A DNA stretch of 64,000 nt from Flavobacterium sp. GSB-24. GTDB taxonomy: Bacteria; Bacteroidota; Bacteroidia; Flavobacteriales; Flavobacteriaceae. Below the pieces are notes generated by a model. The model was not told the DNA's origin. It worked only from the letters and a program-made list of their open reading frames with translations, and did no database searches. Position 1 is the stretch's first letter; each line of letters starts with the position of its first letter. The stretch spans positions 3,782,001 to 3,846,000 of the forward strand of contig NZ_AP027043.1 in assembly GCF_027924665.1 (NCBI RefSeq), given 5' to 3'. The position numbers were made by a program, and so were the translations under genes. Shown in pieces: positions 46,298 to 54,733 of this stretch.

Positions 46298-46397
46298 ATT
46301 TTTAACTTATTAATCCATTTAAATTCAATTAATTACCATTAAATTTGAATCATATTTCTGTGCTCAAAATCGAATTCAACTTAATTTTTAGTTAAAT

Positions 46398-46413
46398 AAC
46401 TATTTTTATAGTT
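46398..46413. promoter_or_regulatory. BlaI-type operator 1 (perfect dyad)
   Basis: AACTAT-TTTT-ATAGTT is a perfect 16-base palindrome. Its end touches the TTG (46412-46414) that serves as upstream promoter element for the first blaI gene. Operator 2 begins 20 bases further on, two helical turns. Confidence 0.75.
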
Positions 46414-46442
46414 GTGTAACTAAAAAAATAGTTGTAGGTTTG
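46412..46442 (+). promoter_or_regulatory. Promoter of the BlaI/M56 operon: TTG-N20-TAGGTTTG
   Basis: TTG at 46412-46414 and TAGGTTTG at 46435-46442 match the flavobacterial promoter with a slightly long spacer. The second operator lies wholly between the two elements, so repressor binding should block RNA polymerase. Confidence 0.65.
46418..46433. promoter_or_regulatory. BlaI-type operator 2
   Basis: AACTA-AAAAAA-TAGTT, a 16-base dyad with the same half-site as operator 1 (46398-46413), placed between the promoter elements. Confidence 0.72.
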
Positions 46443-46456
46443 AATTAAAATTAGAG

Positions 46457-46828
46457 ATGATGCAGAAGTTAACAAACAAAGAAGAAGAAATTATGATGAT
46501 TTTATGGAAGCTGAAAAAAGCTTTTGTAAAAGAAATCCAAGCAGAAATTACTGAAGACCAGCCGCACTACAATACGTTATCTACTATTGTACGCAATTTG
46601 GAAGACAAAGGATATGTTGGGCACAATGCCTTTGGAAATACGCATCAATACTTTCCTATTGTTGCAATTGAAGATTACAGAAAAGGATTTATGAAAACGG
46701 CAATTGATAATTACTTTAATAGTTCTTATAAAAGCATGGTTTCCTTTTTTGCTAAAGAAGAAAAAATTTCAGCCGATGAATTGCGAGAAATTTTATCAAT
46801 GATTGAAAATAAAAACGAAGAAAAATAA
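46457..46828 (+). CDS. blaI: BlaI/MecI/CopY-family transcriptional repressor, copy 1
   Basis: A winged-helix repressor of 122-123 residues; either ATG at 46457 or 46460 can start, and the paralogue at 48520 supports 46460. LTNKEEEIMMILWKLKKAFV and LSTIVRNLEDKGYVGHNAFG (recognition helix and wing) are diagnostic of BlaI/MecI. The C-terminal part (KSMVSFFAKEEKISADELRE) is the dimerisation helix that is cut by the partner protease in staphylococci. Two dyad operators overlap its promoter, implying autoregulation. It is followed 8 bases later by an M56 peptidase gene. Confidence 0.94.
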   Translation: MMQKLTNKEEEIMMILWKLKKAFVKEIQAEITEDQPHYNTLSTIVRNLEDKGYVGHNAFGNTHQYFPIVAIEDYRKGFMKTAIDNYFNSSYKSMVSFFAKEEKISADELREILSMIENKNEEK

Positions 46829-46836
46829 TCTTGCTT

Positions 46837-48498
46837 ATGGAAGCACTTCTTATTTATATCGCCAAATCAAGCAGTTTAATACTTTTTTTCTATTGCGTTT
46901 ATTATTTTTTGCTGCGCAAAGAAACATTCTTTAACAGCAACAGATGGTTTTTATTATCTGGTTTAATAATTGGAGCAATTTTGCCATTATTAAGTTATAC
47001 AAAAGTGATATGGATTGAGACTGCTCCAGCTTTAGGTACTACCATTCAATCATCATTAATTGAAATTCCCGAAAGAGAAGCTTCTAATTTTAATTGGAGT
47101 TATATTATCATGTCTTCATATGGAATTGGCTTTTTAGTTTTTATAATAAAATTTGCAATTGATTTTTATAGTCTCAATTCTATTATCAAAGGAAAAAAAA
47201 TACAACAGCAAGCTGATTTTAAATTCATTGATGTTAATGAAAATATAGCGCCTTTCTCCTATTTTGAATATATTGTATACAACTCATCACTGTACACCAC
47301 TTCTGAATTGGAGAATATCATCGAGCATGAAAAAGTACACAGCGACCAAAATCATACTGTAGATGTATTAATCTCTAGATTATTCAGTATTATTTTTTGG
47401 TTTAATCCAATTGTCTGGCTTTATAAGAAAGCGATCACGCAAAACCTTGAATTTATTGCTGACAACGAGGCTGCTAAAAAATTACAAGACAAAAAATCTT
47501 ACCAATACACGCTTTTAAAAATAACAACACACGAAAATTGTGTTGCAATCACCAATCATTTTTATCAATCATTAATCAAAAAACGAATTGTCATGTTAAA
47601 CAAAAATCAATCAAAAAAGAAGAATTCCTGGAAGTATTACACAGTAATTCCAGCTCTTGCGGCATTTGTTTTATTATTTCAAATTGAAGTAATTGCAAAA
47701 GAAAAACCTCAGGCAAAAAAAGAAATTTCGGAAACAACCAAGTCTGTAGACGTGTATAAAATTAAAAGAAACTCTACAGATGCGGAATTAAAAGAAATTA
47801 AGGAAAAATTAAAATCAATTCATAATATTGATTTTGAAGTTTCAGAAATAAAAAGAGATGCTAAAAACAATCTAACTTCAATAAAAGTAAATGTTACAAG
47901 AGGCGAACAGCAAGCTCAATCAATTCAAATAGGAGATCAAATTATAAAAGATTTTGGAGTACTTGTTACAACAGACAAAGATGGAAACAAAACAATTGGT
48001 ATCCAAACCTTTGATGATCCAAAAGATTCCAAAACTGCTAAAGAACCTAAAGTTGGAGTTAGCAAAGGCATAAGCACCATAACTTCTGATAACTCAGATG
48101 ATTCTAAAACAAATTCAGTAATTACAATTAACAAAAACCAAAATACTAAATCAGATAACAATGTTAACACTTATTCTTTTACTAGTACAAAAACTAATAC
48201 TGATACTAACACAAATATTAACGGTGTTGTAACTATAAATAATGACAAAAATGTTGTCACTAAAGTAATTACTAACGGGGGCTCAACAATTGCTATTTCA
48301 AATTCTGCTAAAAGTGCTACTAAACTAGATGGCCAACTCGTGATTGTTGATGGAGAAGAAATGCCAAGTAATTTTGATATTGATTCTATAAAAGCTAAAG
48401 ATATAGAATCTGTAAGTATTTATAAAGGATCACAAGCTGTAGCTAAATACGGTAATCGCGCTGCAAATGGGGTTATTGAAATTGAAACTAAAAAATAA
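46837..48498 (+). CDS. BlaR1-like M56 membrane metallopeptidase with TonB-plug-like tail, copy 1
   Basis: A 553-residue protein from ATG 46837 (MEALLIYIAKSSSLILFFYC). Three N-terminal helices lead to the zinc motif H164-E-K-V-H168, then SDQNHTVDVLISRLFSI, FIADNEA (third ligand) and a fourth helix (VIPALAAFVLLFQIE, about residues 268-284). The extracytoplasmic tail is Thr/Asn-rich and ends in a TonB-receptor plug-like segment (IKAKDIESVSIYKGSQAVAK, then YGNRAANGVIEIETKK). The penicillin-binding sensor domain of BlaR1 is absent. It is expected to cleave the BlaI partner on an unknown signal. Confidence 0.88.
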   Translation: MEALLIYIAKSSSLILFFYCVYYFLLRKETFFNSNRWFLLSGLIIGAILPLLSYTKVIWIETAPALGTTIQSSLIEIPEREASNFNWSYIIMSSYGIGFLVFIIKFAIDFYSLNSIIKGKKIQQQADFKFIDVNENIAPFSYFEYIVYNSSLYTTSELENIIEHEKVHSDQNHTVDVLISRLFSIIFWFNPIVWLYKKAITQNLEFIADNEAAKKLQDKKSYQYTLLKITTHENCVAITNHFYQSLIKKRIVMLNKNQSKKKNSWKYYTVIPALAAFVLLFQIEVIAKEKPQAKKEISETTKSVDVYKIKRNSTDAELKEIKEKLKSIHNIDFEVSEIKRDAKNNLTSIKVNVTRGEQQAQSIQIGDQIIKDFGVLVTTDKDGNKTIGIQTFDDPKDSKTAKEPKVGVSKGISTITSDNSDDSKTNSVITINKNQNTKSDNNVNTYSFTSTKTNTDTNTNINGVVTINNDKNVVTKVITNGGSTIAISNSAKSATKLDGQLVIVDGEEMPSNFDIDSIKAKDIESVSIYKGSQAVAKYGNRAANGVIEIETKK

Positions 48499-48519
48499 AA
48501 AACTTTTATAAAAAAGAAA

Positions 48520-48888
48520 ATGCAAAAACTAACCAATAAAGAAGAAGAAATCATGCATATTTTATGGAAGCTGAAAAAGGCTTTTGTAAAAGAAATTCAA
48601 GCAGAGATTTTAGAAGATCAGCCGCATTACAATACTTTGTCTACTATTGTTCGTAATCTGGAAGAGAAAGGTTATGTTGCGCACAATGCTTTTGGAAACA
48701 CGCATCAGTACTATCCTATCGTAAGTATCGAAGATTACCGAAAAGGTTTTATGAGTACTGCTATTGACAATTATTTTAATAGTTCGTACAAAAGCATGGT
48801 TTCATTTTTTGCTAAGGAAGAAAAAATTTCTGCAGATGAATTACGAGAAATATTAGATATGATCGAAAATCCAAAAGAAGGTAAATAA
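48520..48888 (+). CDS. BlaI/MecI/CopY-family transcriptional repressor, copy 2
   Basis: A 122-residue paralogue of the blaI product encoded at 46457, nearly identical through LTNKEEEIM, ILWKLKKAFVKEIQAEI, DQPHYNTLSTIVRNLE, HNAFGNTHQY and the C-terminal KSMVSFFAKEEKISADELRE. Differences are concentrated at a few positions (MHIL for MMIL, SIEDYRKGFMST for AIEDYRKGFMKT). There is no operator or promoter of its own in the 21 bases after the first M56 gene, so it is read from the same transcript. It probably binds the same operators. Confidence 0.93.
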   Translation: MQKLTNKEEEIMHILWKLKKAFVKEIQAEILEDQPHYNTLSTIVRNLEEKGYVAHNAFGNTHQYYPIVSIEDYRKGFMSTAIDNYFNSSYKSMVSFFAKEEKISADELREILDMIENPKEGK

Positions 48889-48898
48889 TCAAAATAGT

Positions 48899-50731
48899 AT
48901 GGAAGCACTTTTCATTTTTATCCTGAAATCGAGCGGATTGTTGGCAATGTTTTACTTTGCTTACATCTTTTTACTTCGCAAAGAAACTTTTTTCAATAGC
49001 AGTCGCTGGTTTTTAATAGCGGGATTAATTACTTCTGTAATTCTGCCTTTTGTAGTTTATACCAAAGTTATCTGGATCGAAAAACCAGCTATGCAAATTA
49101 TCAACAAAAGAGTGGTTGAGAATTTTTCTACTGCTGATACTTATAGCGCTAGTACTGCTTCTTACGAACCCCAATACAGCCCTGCAGCGTTAGTTGAAGA
49201 AGAGCCGATTGAAATTAATTGGGATTTAGTCTTTATAGCAATTTATAGTTTAGGATTAACTGCTTTCTTGTTCAAATTTGGGTTTGACATTTATAGTTTG
49301 AACTCAGTTTTAAAAGGAAAAAAAATACAACAGCAGGAAGATTTTAAATTTATTGACGTAAATGAAAACATAGCTCCTTTCTCCTATTTCGATTATATTG
49401 TGTATAACTCATCACTGTACACTCCGACAGAATTAGAAAGTATTTTGGAACACGAAAAAGTGCACAGCGACCAAAATCATACTATTGATGTTTTGATATC
49501 TAGAATCTTCTGCATCTTATTTTGGTTTAATCCAATTGTGTGGCTTTATAAAAAAGCTATTTTACAAAATCTTGAATTCATAGCCGACAGAGAGGCCTCT
49601 AAAAAAATCAACGACAAAAAAGCGTATCAATACACGCTTTTAAAAATCACAACGCATGAAACCTGCGTTGCAATCACCAATCATTTTTATCAATCATTAA
49701 TCAAAAAACGAATTGTCATGTTAAACAAAAATCAATCAAGCAAAAAGAATTACTGGAAATATTACGCCGTAATTCCTGCTCTTGGAGCTTTTGTACTTTT
49801 ATTTCAAATAGAAACAATCGCGCAGGAAAAGAAACAAAACGGATTGCCGTCTATTTCAAAAGACACTATTAAATCAAGCGATGAAACTTTTAAAATCACA
49901 AAAAACACAACTGATCAGGAATTAAAGGATTTGCCAGGGAAATTAAAAGCAAATCATAATATTGATATTGAAATTTCAGACGTTAAAAGAAATACCAAAA
50001 AGGAATTAACTGCTATTCAAATTAAAGTAAAATCAGAATCGGGCAAGAAACAAACTATTGTAATCGACGGTGATGAAGCTATAAAAGACTGTGAATTTGC
50101 AATTGGAACTGACGAAGATGGCACAAAATCTATAGTTATTAATACAGACGAAAACTTCTCTGTTCCTGTTATGATGAGAAATGAAAAAGTTATCGTTCGT
50201 CACTACGGAGATTCAGACATTACACCACCAACACCGCCAGTTTTTCCTTCAGGACCAATGCCAGCTGCCCCTGCATTAGATATGTCTAAAATGCCAAAAC
50301 CTCCAGTTGCTCCAAAAAACATGAACGATAAAGTTGCTGTAAGTAAGTTTGAAAAACAAATGGAAGCTTTTGAAAAACAAATGGAAGTTATTGAGCCTCA
50401 ATTGGAAGCGTATGAAAAACAAGTTGAAGCATTAATGTCTCAAAGAGAAGCGATTTACGAAAAAGAAATGGCTAAGTATGAGATAGCAATGGAAAAGTTC
50501 CACGCAAACATGGAAAAATTTAATTACGATTTTAAGTTTAAATTTGAAAATGATGCAGAATATGGCAACACAAAACAATATGAGCAAGACATGAAACAGT
50601 TGGAGCTTGATATGAAACAGCATGAAAAAGACATGAAACAACATGCGAAAGATATGAAGCAGCATGAAAAAAACATGAAACAGCACGAAAAAGATATGAA
50701 AGCTATGGAAAAAGAAAATAAAAAAGCTTAA
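48899..50731 (+). CDS. BlaR1-like M56 membrane metallopeptidase with charged coiled-coil tail, copy 2
   Basis: A 610-residue paralogue of the M56 protein encoded at 46837. The N-terminal membrane/protease part is strongly conserved: HExxH at H185-E-K-V-H189, PFSYFDYIVYNSSLYT and the KKRIVMLNKNQSSKKN segment. After the fourth helix the sequences diverge. This copy has a Pro-rich stretch (TPPTPPVFPSGPMPAAPAL) and about 150 residues of Lys/Glu/Met-rich helix ending in seven-residue MKQHEKD repeats, a long coiled coil. It has no plug-like tail and no penicillin-binding domain. The different tails suggest different sensing partners. A terminator follows. Confidence 0.88.
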   Translation: MEALFIFILKSSGLLAMFYFAYIFLLRKETFFNSSRWFLIAGLITSVILPFVVYTKVIWIEKPAMQIINKRVVENFSTADTYSASTASYEPQYSPAALVEEEPIEINWDLVFIAIYSLGLTAFLFKFGFDIYSLNSVLKGKKIQQQEDFKFIDVNENIAPFSYFDYIVYNSSLYTPTELESILEHEKVHSDQNHTIDVLISRIFCILFWFNPIVWLYKKAILQNLEFIADREASKKINDKKAYQYTLLKITTHETCVAITNHFYQSLIKKRIVMLNKNQSSKKNYWKYYAVIPALGAFVLLFQIETIAQEKKQNGLPSISKDTIKSSDETFKITKNTTDQELKDLPGKLKANHNIDIEISDVKRNTKKELTAIQIKVKSESGKKQTIVIDGDEAIKDCEFAIGTDEDGTKSIVINTDENFSVPVMMRNEKVIVRHYGDSDITPPTPPVFPSGPMPAAPALDMSKMPKPPVAPKNMNDKVAVSKFEKQMEAFEKQMEVIEPQLEAYEKQVEALMSQREAIYEKEMAKYEIAMEKFHANMEKFNYDFKFKFENDAEYGNTKQYEQDMKQLELDMKQHEKDMKQHAKDMKQHEKNMKQHEKDMKAMEKENKKA

Positions 50732-50749
50732 TATACTTTGTTCATCTAA

Positions 50750-50777
50750 AAAAACCAGTGCTAAAACACTGGTTTTT
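50750..50777 (+). terminator. Terminator after second M56 gene
   Basis: AAAAACCAGTG and CACTGGTTTTT pair perfectly with a 6-base loop, with T residues on the 3' side. Read-through into the serine hydrolase gene is possible; no separate strong promoter box is seen before it. Confidence 0.8.
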
Positions 50778-50803
50778 CTATTTCTAATATTAAATATTGA
50801 AAA

Positions 50804-52237
50804 ATGAAAAAAAATCTTCTAACTCTTTTGTTGCTTTTTAGTCTTTCTATTATTGCTCAGCAAAATTTAGCCGATAAAGCCATTTTTAAAGCTATGGATA
50901 AGACAGCATCAATATTATTAGAAAAATCAAAAACTAATTCAATCTCAATTGGTGTTGTCAATAATGGGAAAACTTTTACCAGACATTATGGAGAAATTGA
51001 TAAAAACAAAGAAAATAAAGCTGATAATAACACTGTTTTTGAAATTGCATCGATCACTAAATTATTTACCGGTTTACTTACAGCTCAAGCTGTATTAGAG
51101 GGAAAACTAAATCTCAACGACGACATTAGAAAATATCTCACTGGGATTTATCCAAATTTAGAATATAACGGTACTCCAATTACGATTAAAGATTTAGTTT
51201 CTTTTAGAACTGGTTTTAACAGAGATCTTCCAGATACGGATGAATTAAGAAAAAATCGAAACGACAGCAGTTACTTGGCTTTTAAAAAGCTGGACGAATC
51301 TTACAGTCGTGAAAAGTTCTTTGAAGATCTTAAAACCATTAAATTAGACACCTTGCCAGGAACTAAATTTAAATACAGTAACGGAAGTCTAAATTTGACA
51401 GCTCATATTTTAGAAAACGTCTATCACAAAGATTATGAAACACTTCTTAAAGAGAATATATTTTCAAAATTGGACATGAAATCAACTGGAATTAATTTAG
51501 ATTCAGACATAGTTATTGCAAATGGTTACAATCTAAAAGGAGTATTAATGCCGAGAATTTCAGATAATCTTTGGGGCGCTGCTGGAAGGTTAAAAACTAC
51601 TTTAGGTGACTTAACTAAATTTATTGCTTACGAACTAAATACAAAAAATAAAATTGTTCAGGAATCGCAGCGAAATCTCTTAAACAGTATCACAACTTGG
51701 AACGGCTATTTTTGGGATTATATTCAGGTAGAGGAAAATGGTCAAAACTGCTGGAAACACGGTGGTGCATTTGGTACTCAAAACATGTTGATTGTTTATC
51801 CAGAAAGGAAACTTGGATTATCGATCATTGTAAATATAAGCGATGAAAACACAGCAAATGCATTAGGAGAAGCCATGATACGATTGTCAAATGATTTACT
51901 TAGTGCATACAAAAAACAAACTGGTATTTATGGATATAAAATAATTAATAACAATGTTGTTTTTAGTTATGAACATGATAAAAATTTAAACTCAAATCTT
52001 ATTAAAAGTATATCGATTGCAGGTTCATTCAATAATTGGAACCCCAATGATAAAAACTATCAATTGATTCAAAAAAGCAAAAACACCTTTGAGTTATCGA
52101 TTCCAAAAGCTAATTTTGAGAAAGACAAGACACATTTTTTTAAATTTGTAATTAATAAATCTGGCTGGATTGAAGCTCCTCAAAATGTAATAAACAGAGA
52201 AGCAGATGGCGATAAAAACTTAATTCTTAAAATTTAA
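50804..52237 (+). CDS. Exported serine hydrolase (class C beta-lactamase/PBP4 family) with C-terminal carbohydrate-binding-like domain
   Basis: A 477-residue protein with a signal peptide (about residues 1-19, ending SIIAQ). The serine beta-lactamase fold has S83-I-T-K86, Y191-S-N193 and H319-G-G in the order expected for the family; HGG replaces the usual KTG, as in many esterase/D-peptidase members. After about residue 395 a separate domain begins (ISIAGSFNNWNPND at about 404-417, FFKFVINKSGWIEAP), which resembles AMPK/CBM48-type or E-set modules. It lies 72 bases after the M56 gene and may be its target or effector. The substrate is unknown. Confidence 0.85.
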   Translation: MKKNLLTLLLLFSLSIIAQQNLADKAIFKAMDKTASILLEKSKTNSISIGVVNNGKTFTRHYGEIDKNKENKADNNTVFEIASITKLFTGLLTAQAVLEGKLNLNDDIRKYLTGIYPNLEYNGTPITIKDLVSFRTGFNRDLPDTDELRKNRNDSSYLAFKKLDESYSREKFFEDLKTIKLDTLPGTKFKYSNGSLNLTAHILENVYHKDYETLLKENIFSKLDMKSTGINLDSDIVIANGYNLKGVLMPRISDNLWGAAGRLKTTLGDLTKFIAYELNTKNKIVQESQRNLLNSITTWNGYFWDYIQVEENGQNCWKHGGAFGTQNMLIVYPERKLGLSIIVNISDENTANALGEAMIRLSNDLLSAYKKQTGIYGYKIINNNVVFSYEHDKNLNSNLIKSISIAGSFNNWNPNDKNYQLIQKSKNTFELSIPKANFEKDKTHFFKFVINKSGWIEAPQNVINREADGDKNLILKI

Positions 52238-52256
52238 ATTACATAATTTACACCTT

Positions 52257-52290
52257 AAAGACTTTGGTTTAAACCCAAAGTCTTTTTTTT
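52257..52290 (+). terminator. Strong terminator after the serine hydrolase gene
   Basis: AAAGACTTTGG (52257-52267) and CCAAAGTCTTT (52275-52285) form a perfect stem with a 7-base loop and a T-run. Confidence 0.9.
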
Positions 52291-54211: not shown

Positions 54212-54733
54212 ATGAAAAATCTACCTCAAAAAGTAAGAAGTAAAAAACTAAGTTCTAGAGTTGATTTAACTGCAATGGTCAGCGTTTCTTTTTTGCTGAT
54301 TATATTTTTTATGTTGGTTGGTGAATTATCAAAGCCAAAAGGATTGGATTTAGCAAAAGGAAATGACTGCTGCGACTGCCCAGTTCCGGATCTTGTAGAA
54401 AATAGAACATTTACAATTATACTAGGCCCAGATAACAAATTGATTTTTTATGCAGGACTTTTAGAAACTCCAATAATAGAACCACAATTAACAAACTATG
54501 GCAAAGATGGTATTCGTAAAAAAATAACAACTTATAATAATTCAGCATTAAAATACTCTGAACAAATAGGAAAACCAGGAAGAGGAATTTCTGTTATTAT
54601 AAAACCAACAAAGAAATCTAATTACGGAAATCTTATAGATATTCTTGAAGAATTAGAAATAGCAAACATAAATTCGTATGCTATTGTTCCTGAATTTACG
54701 CCAAAAGAAACCAAATTATTAGCGTCAAAATAA
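54212..54733 (+). CDS. exbD: Orphan ExbD/TolR-like protein lacking the key Asp
   Basis: A 173-residue protein with a short cytosolic start, one helix at about residues 21-37 (AMVSVSFLLIIFFMLVG) and a periplasmic domain. The pattern VDLTAMVSVSFLLIIFFML aligns with ExbD/TolR, but where ExbD has the functional Asp of the helix there is Ser24. A Cys cluster (CCDC, residues 53-56) follows. No exbB, tonB or tolQ gene lies nearby. This is probably a Bacteroidota-specific accessory form; energy coupling cannot be assumed. Confidence 0.85.
   Translation: MKNLPQKVRSKKLSSRVDLTAMVSVSFLLIIFFMLVGELSKPKGLDLAKGNDCCDCPVPDLVENRTFTIILGPDNKLIFYAGLLETPIIEPQLTNYGKDGIRKKITTYNNSALKYSEQIGKPGRGISVIIKPTKKSNYGNLIDILEELEIANINSYAIVPEFTPKETKLLASK

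Follow-up and report, generated by a model that had tools for sequence, protein, structure and literature searches.

The closest described relatives of the locus presented here are the BlaR1/BlaI and MecR1/MecI systems of staphylococci, which consist of one repressor-protease pair and have a penicillin-binding sensor on the protease. In the part of PMC9834060 considered here, BlaR1 from S. aureus is described as a domain-swapped dimer with its autocleavage loop in the active site, which cuts BlaI directly between Asn101 and Phe102. We studied a 64,000-nucleotide window from Flavobacterium sp. GSB-24 (NCBI RefSeq assembly GCF_027924665.1, contig NZ_AP027043.1, positions 3,782,001 to 3,846,000 of the forward strand). 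Positions given below are those of this window unless a contig is named, and the cassette, its promoter, the hydrolase gene and the terminators lie on its forward strand. In contrast to the staphylococcal systems, two BlaI/M56 pairs are arranged head to tail in one unit (46457-50731) and neither protease has such a sensor. The periplasmic tails also differ, the dyad is another one (AACTA-N6-TAGTT) and no adjacent beta-lactamase is required.

We consider it somewhat probable that this cassette is a self-regulating, BlaR1-like BlaI/M56 switch which would be blind to beta-lactams, serve the envelope and bring two inputs to one repressor and operator; inputs and outputs are predicted from the sequence. 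A sequence-only reading of this DNA had already proposed a two-input derepression switch. That proposal is supported by the two pairs, the lack of a recognised penicillin-binding sensor, the one control region, the differing tails and the occurrence in many species, while a recent duplication and a hydrolase as the end of the cassette had to be given up. BlaI/M56 genes in Bacteroidota tend to carry the names of staphylococcal beta-lactam regulators, but the sequence here says otherwise. What seems to be new is a BlaR1-like switch without beta-lactam sensor, anciently doubled, with one operator and two kinds of tail. Term searches of the open-access literature turned up nothing published about the tandem, its operator or the plug-like tail, and M56 is not mentioned in the searched portions of PMC12611786 and PMC12045153.

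Two repressor-protease pairs under one control region

Both repressors belong to PF03965 (Penicillinase_R, cut-off 22.6 bits). BlaI-1 (46457..46828) scores 103.5 bits and matches MecI/BlaI structures by sequence, and has a Met at 46460 in common with the other copies; BlaI-2 (48520..48888) scores 107.2 bits. The proteases are membrane metalloproteases with a BlaR1-like head: M56-1 (46837..48498; Peptidase_M56, 56 bits), for which we use the ATG at 46837 although the listed open reading frame begins at TTG 46831, and M56-2 (48899..50731; PF05569, 53 bits). The head-to-tail pairs of the sequence-only reading are thereby confirmed. Because the intergenic gaps are short (8, 21 and 10 nt) and only a single operator and promoter is present, the four genes probably form one transcript. 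The single operon proposed before therefore appears to hold for these four genes, but not for the hydrolase gene behind them, from which they are separated by an intrinsic terminator (50750..50777, -12.8 kcal/mol).

The control region contains an operator array of three AACTA-N6-TAGTT dyads with a 20-bp period (46378..46433), one with a single mismatch (46378-46393) and two exact (46398-46413 and 46418-46433). It overlaps a putative Bacteroidota-type promoter (46412..46442; -33 TTG at 46412-46414, -7 TAGGTTTG at 46435-46442), and the third dyad sits in the spacer between the two elements. The inverted-repeat operator at the own promoter that is characteristic of BlaI/MecI repressors thus seems to be present. 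This region was compared among 69 full tandems, defined as loci with two BlaI proteins and two M56 proteins of at least 400 amino acids. At least two exact dyads precede BlaI-1 in all 69 (spacing 20 bp in 65 and 40 bp in four), the last one always sits in the promoter spacer with the -7 element starting 1 nt past it, and within 130 nt ahead of BlaI-2 no exact dyad was found in any of them. In shuffled upstream stretches the promoter pattern occurred in 36 of 3450 cases.

The exact double dyad is found in 281 of 398 genomes of the genus. In a sample of the family 116 of 299 genomes, from 96 of 236 genera, contain it, and neither set has a single case of the reversed pattern. When up to three mismatches in the 20 fixed bases are allowed, the own genome shows four matches, all at two BlaI-M56 loci, but the reversed pattern gives three. 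Therefore the weight of the operator rests on the exact matches, of which the own genome has two against none for the reversed pattern. Single dyads occur there at chance level (13 places, versus 34 for the reversed pattern) and carry no information on targets.

Proteases with a common head and different tails

The sequence-only reading had stated that both proteases keep their active residues and lack a penicillin-binding sensor. Both statements are correct: the M56 gluzincin head with HExxH is present in M56-1 and M56-2, and neither gives a Pfam match to a penicillin-binding (transpeptidase-like) sensor. With the NCBIfam model blaR1_generic they reach 37.8 and 35.4 bits at a cut-off of 400. 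The BlaR1 fold was recovered in M56-1, on which it was tested; the head of M56-2 is poorly modelled. Degraded motifs in related strains had been named as evidence against the switch, yet the protease motifs are kept in 175 of 175 distinct M56 proteins of at least 400 amino acids from the fetched loci, although the first protease is split into two frames in L101/L200, L217 and L229. The stretch TNHFYQS before LIKKR (65/69 copy-1 and 68/69 copy-2 proteins) resembles the autocleavage stretch of BlaR1 around S283-F284, yet is offset by about two residues in the alignment.

The copies had been called near-identical. This is true for the BlaI proteins (111 of 122 residues or 91% identical; DNA 84% over a 300-nt stretch) but not for the proteases, in which identity over aligned residues is 72% for the heads, and only 28% is found for the tails. 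Both share an alpha/beta periplasmic domain (47749..48024 in M56-1, by HMM and AF2 model, with its counterpart at 49883..50158 in M56-2). M56-1 ends in a SusC/RagA-plug-like module (48316..48495) with a match to the TonB-receptor Plug family (PF07715, 28.6 bits, cut-off 23.9), and its last 60 residues give a weak but consistent match to the SusC/RagA plug region. Compared with SusC/RagA proteins only the C-terminal part of the plug is present, without a barrel and tethered to an inner-membrane protease. M56-2 instead carries a Pro-rich linker and a long charged Met/Lys/Glu coil (50258..50728; helices 478-549 and 558-609). The last 157 residues contain 17 Met and 5 His, and Met 495, 524, 531 and 538 are invariant in 49 aligned sequences.

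In the tandem loci the type of tail follows the position, with the plug-like module in copy 1 and the long charged coil in copy 2 in 69 of 69 each. Orthologous tails from 40 sampled tandems have a median identity of 48 and 52% (of the longer sequence), the heads of 74 and 78% (over aligned residues). Peptidase_M56 and Plug matches in one protein are also known from Bacteroidota proteins of Aestuariibaculum (P0072) and Tannerella (P0073). A plug-tailed M56 protein is also recorded under the name F. johnsoniae. Whereas the Aestuariibaculum and Tannerella cases are known from the protein alone, in the present tandem it is always copy 1 that has the plug-like tail and copy 2 that bears the coil. 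Among 31 single-copy loci, 15 tails have only the coil, seven both modules, seven only the plug and two neither. Because the plug is matched only weakly in the tails with both modules (E about 1e-4 to 1e-3), we can do no more than suggest an ancestor that carried the two.

Age and distribution of the tandem

With the BlaI-2 protein as query a relative was found in 247 of 299 genomes of the genus, and 48 of the 76 fetched loci (the best 76 of 553 matches) have two BlaI genes in tandem. In total 107 non-redundant loci (106 and the window) were classified. The 69 full tandems comprise 46 of the best-match loci, 22 other regions and the window. Since the sample was partly chosen for tandems (of 60 regions, 41 were taken for the tandem, 18 were hand-picked, among them the tandem L140, and one is the own third locus), 69 of 107 does not represent the frequency in the genus. 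Thirty-one loci have one BlaI and one M56, three have one BlaI and two M56 (L124, L229, L236), two have two BlaI and a split first M56 (L200, L217) and two have one BlaI with a short or split M56 (L137, L234); the last seven are left out of the tail counts. The duplication is thus not unique to one assembly, a point on which the sequence-only reading had made its proposal depend. The five-gene order with hydrolase, in contrast, recurs only in part, as the repressor-protease tandem exists in 69 loci but the hydrolase type of the window, within 400 nt downstream, in just 23 of them.

The duplication had also been considered fairly recent, which is ruled out by the following data. Between BlaI-1 and BlaI-2 of the window pS is 0.61 (dS about 1.3) and pN 0.058, while orthologous BlaI copies from different genomes have median pS values of 0.64 and 0.62. 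Synonymous changes between the two genes have thus almost reached saturation. The low pN at this pS indicates purifying selection on the repressor. In a tree of M56 heads (without L107_M1, L118_M1 and L139_M1, and with the outgroup L081_M1 on a very long branch) one and the same set of 15 genomes, to which the window belongs, yields a copy-1 clade (support 100/100) and a copy-2 clade (99/96). With one exception, the copy-1 heads are parted from everything else in the tree by a moderately supported branch (84/87). Because of the synonymous divergence of BlaI and the sorting of the tree by position and not by genome, the doubling is older than these 15 genomes.

Loss of copy 1 is suggested by single-copy coil-tailed loci (L123, L125-L127, L132, L136) which group within the copy-2 rows of the tree. 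L124, also within these rows, has kept the first M56 while the first BlaI is gone, and its BlaI lies between the two M56 genes. In L124, L229 and L236 two M56 genes come with just one BlaI, so that a single repressor may act for the two proteases; the first M56 of L229 is split. The two copies of L121 are sisters (100/98), which looks like a separate doubling.

The serine hydrolase downstream of the cassette

The gene at 50804..52237 encodes a serine hydrolase of the Pfam Beta-lactamase family (PF00144, 161.5 bits) with a signal-peptide-like start and the motifs SITK, YSN and KHGG, in agreement with the beta-lactamase-fold protein described before. It is followed by a further intrinsic terminator (52257..52285), and similar hairpins are found behind the hydrolase slot in several relatives. 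In the 400 nt behind M56-2, the window type of hydrolase is found in 23 of the 69 tandems, a distant PF00144 relative in 16 and no hydrolase in 30 (one of these, L195, stops 661 nt past M56-2). A terminator within the first 120 nt past M56-2 separates cassette and hydrolase in 21 of 23 loci of the window type and two of 16 of the distant type. Neither a consensus promoter nor an exact dyad was found in the 150 nt ahead of any of the 39 hydrolases. Because of the intervening terminator and its patchy occurrence, the hydrolase was rejected as part of the cassette core, and the cassette does not end in it as had been assumed. The window hydrolase is a frequent neighbour which may receive read-through, and the distant type is more likely than the window type to be co-transcribed.

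The hydrolase does not reach the NCBIfam equivalog for class C beta-lactamases (103.9 bits, cut-off 415), and its best NCBIfam match is AmpH (110.9 bits, cut-off 266). Among solved structures, protein Flp is the one closest to it in sequence and ranks before the beta-lactamases. The C-terminal 112 residues (51899-52234) show some likeness to the glycogen-binding module AMPK1_CBM, below the threshold (17.6 bits, cut-off 26.8).

The operator in the own genome and in relatives

The own genome (5.35 Mb) has three good and one weak BlaI match and three M56 matches. The third BlaI-M56 pair (L081, L003; at C1:3329185, region G000:C1:3329092-3331000) is preceded by the only other operator array of this genome, with two exact dyads and a third with two mismatches. 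Its M56 tail is made of different repeats and is possibly a third input to the same operator type. The fourth Penicillinase_R match (G000:C1:882757-882975) is weak (26.7 bits), and there is no M56 match nearby.

In relatives we inspected 77 loci with the exact double operator (30 + 47; biased to genomes with at least two sites), 13 of which do not adjoin BlaI or M56. These 13 comprise four PF00144 hydrolases (from four genomes), six GLPGLI genes, one receptor-like gene (CarboxypepD_reg above and Plug slightly under the cut-off), one DUF2383 gene and one unknown. The operator-bearing hydrolases are not the cassette-adjacent ones, as they share only 25-30% identity with the distant type. At three of the six GLPGLI loci the operator is equally close to a divergent gene, which we presume to be MATE-like. 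Four GLPGLI loci (L289, L290, L291, L293) continue into a large receptor-like gene under the BlaI operator; one such gene, tested by Pfam, matches CarboxypepD_reg and, below threshold, OMP_b-brl_3. Such loci might help to find out what GLPGLI proteins do. Of 20 double-operator loci from other genera of the Flavobacteriaceae (L269-L288), 16 adjoin BlaI, and in 15 a gene resembling Na/Ca exchangers by its sequence start lies beside the operator, mostly divergent to BlaI-M56; all three of these 15 that were checked by Pfam were confirmed. In L280 there is no BlaI, and the operator is flanked by a PF00144 hydrolase on one side and the exchanger on the other. Since the candidate targets in relatives are hydrolase, GLPGLI/receptor and antiporter genes, envelope and transport functions rather than resistance are indicated, and the regulon more likely concerns envelope maintenance and transport than beta-lactam resistance.

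Proposed mechanism and competing explanations

In the proposed switch, BlaI-1 and BlaI-2 would bind as dimers to the three tandem operators overlapping the single promoter. An envelope change, sensed by either the plug-like module of M56-1 on its flexible linker or the rod-like charged coil of M56-2, would be passed through the common alpha/beta domain and the fourth transmembrane helix. The freed protease would then cut BlaI at the conserved F-FAKEE site, by analogy to S. aureus, and lift repression. In the BlaI stretch matching the S. aureus cut site MVSF-FAKEEK is commonest, and 138 of 138 sequences have Phe at P1' where the cut is presumed. Either tail may trigger cleavage, mixed M56 dimers may form and the two BlaI proteins may have common targets. 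The operator is common to the two repressors and to the third BlaI-M56 pair, which is why we expect the signals to converge. As to output, the switch would in the own genome mainly control itself, and weak read-through may reach the hydrolase gene. This is also what weighs against envelope or transport outputs of the switch: at up to three mismatches no trans target of the double operator was found in the own genome, and AACT-N8-AGTT was not found in the 3.8-kb locus (L268) of the only GLPGLI gene found there.

Some published data concern BlaI-family genes elsewhere. In the part of PMC5294843 considered, disruption of M949_RS01915 in Riemerella anatipestifer altered the LPS and raised expression of a BlaI-family regulator gene, an outside hint that would fit an envelope input if this regulator is orthologous to the BlaI of the window. 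For Zobellia, PMC5613140 names BlaI as one of several families of regulators that are induced on algal polysaccharides, and for P. gingivalis, PMC10470040 lists changes linked to hemin in one BlaI and one M56 gene.

A more specific version of the switch is speculative and in our view rather unlikely. In it the cassette would survey the outer envelope with two antennae: M56-1 would report assembly or occupancy of TonB receptors by means of a tethered plug mimic and M56-2 the spacing of periplasm and outer membrane by a rod of about 120 helical residues. Both would erase the same repressor, and the shared operator would drive receptor/GLPGLI, serine hydrolase and Na/Ca antiporter genes across the Flavobacteriaceae. 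If true, this would amount to an envelope-stress regulon in a phylum where little is known about the classical Gram-negative ones. In any case the operator is defined and there are candidate targets in relatives, which makes the proposal testable, and the tandem is a natural experiment: one sensor-protease became two and the tails grew apart, with engine and DNA site remaining unchanged.

The homology to BlaI/BlaR1, the three hydrolase motifs and the double operator of PF00144 genes in four relatives would also suit a canonical penicillinase system, with the proteases as beta-lactam sensors and the hydrolase as the beta-lactamase that is induced. We give this little credence, because no such sensor was found in either protease, the scores for blaR1 and class C are far from the NCBIfam cut-offs and that for AmpH is also below its own, protein Flp outranks the beta-lactamases, and the hydrolase lies behind a terminator and is missing within 400 nt in 30 of 69 loci. 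A merely redundant or dosage-related duplicate with freely drifting tails and no separate input is quite unlikely as well. Orthologous tails are indeed less alike than heads, copy 1 was apparently lost in several genomes and three of 107 loci manage with one BlaI for two M56, but drift does not agree with a tail type fixed by position in all tandems, kept active sites and the constraint seen in BlaI.

The coil of M56-2 could also bind copper or zinc, which would make copy 2 a metal sensor with a CopY-type response combined with a protease. Its Met and His content, the four invariant Met and the presence of CopY_TcrY among the NCBIfam neighbours of BlaI point in this direction, although the latter score is far under the equivalog cut-off (39.5 bits, cut-off 121.95). 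However, the coil His are not conserved where tail ends were compared, no metal transporter was recognised beside the cassette and coil packing explains the regular heptad-like spacing equally well, which makes the metal sensor as improbable as the penicillinase system. Hardly better placed is the idea that the M56 proteins chiefly cut envelope proteins and BlaI merely sets their level. It would account for predicted operator targets which in the own genome are BlaI-M56 loci only, but the cleavage region of BlaI is kept throughout, and by homology to BlaR1 the active site should face the cytoplasm.

Neighbouring genes

The 69 tandems have largely common flanks, with an MFS gene upstream in 67 and an EamA gene downstream in 61. 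A gene further downstream in the window (54212-54733), seems to resemble ExbD/TolR; related loci have between one and four copies of it in tandem.
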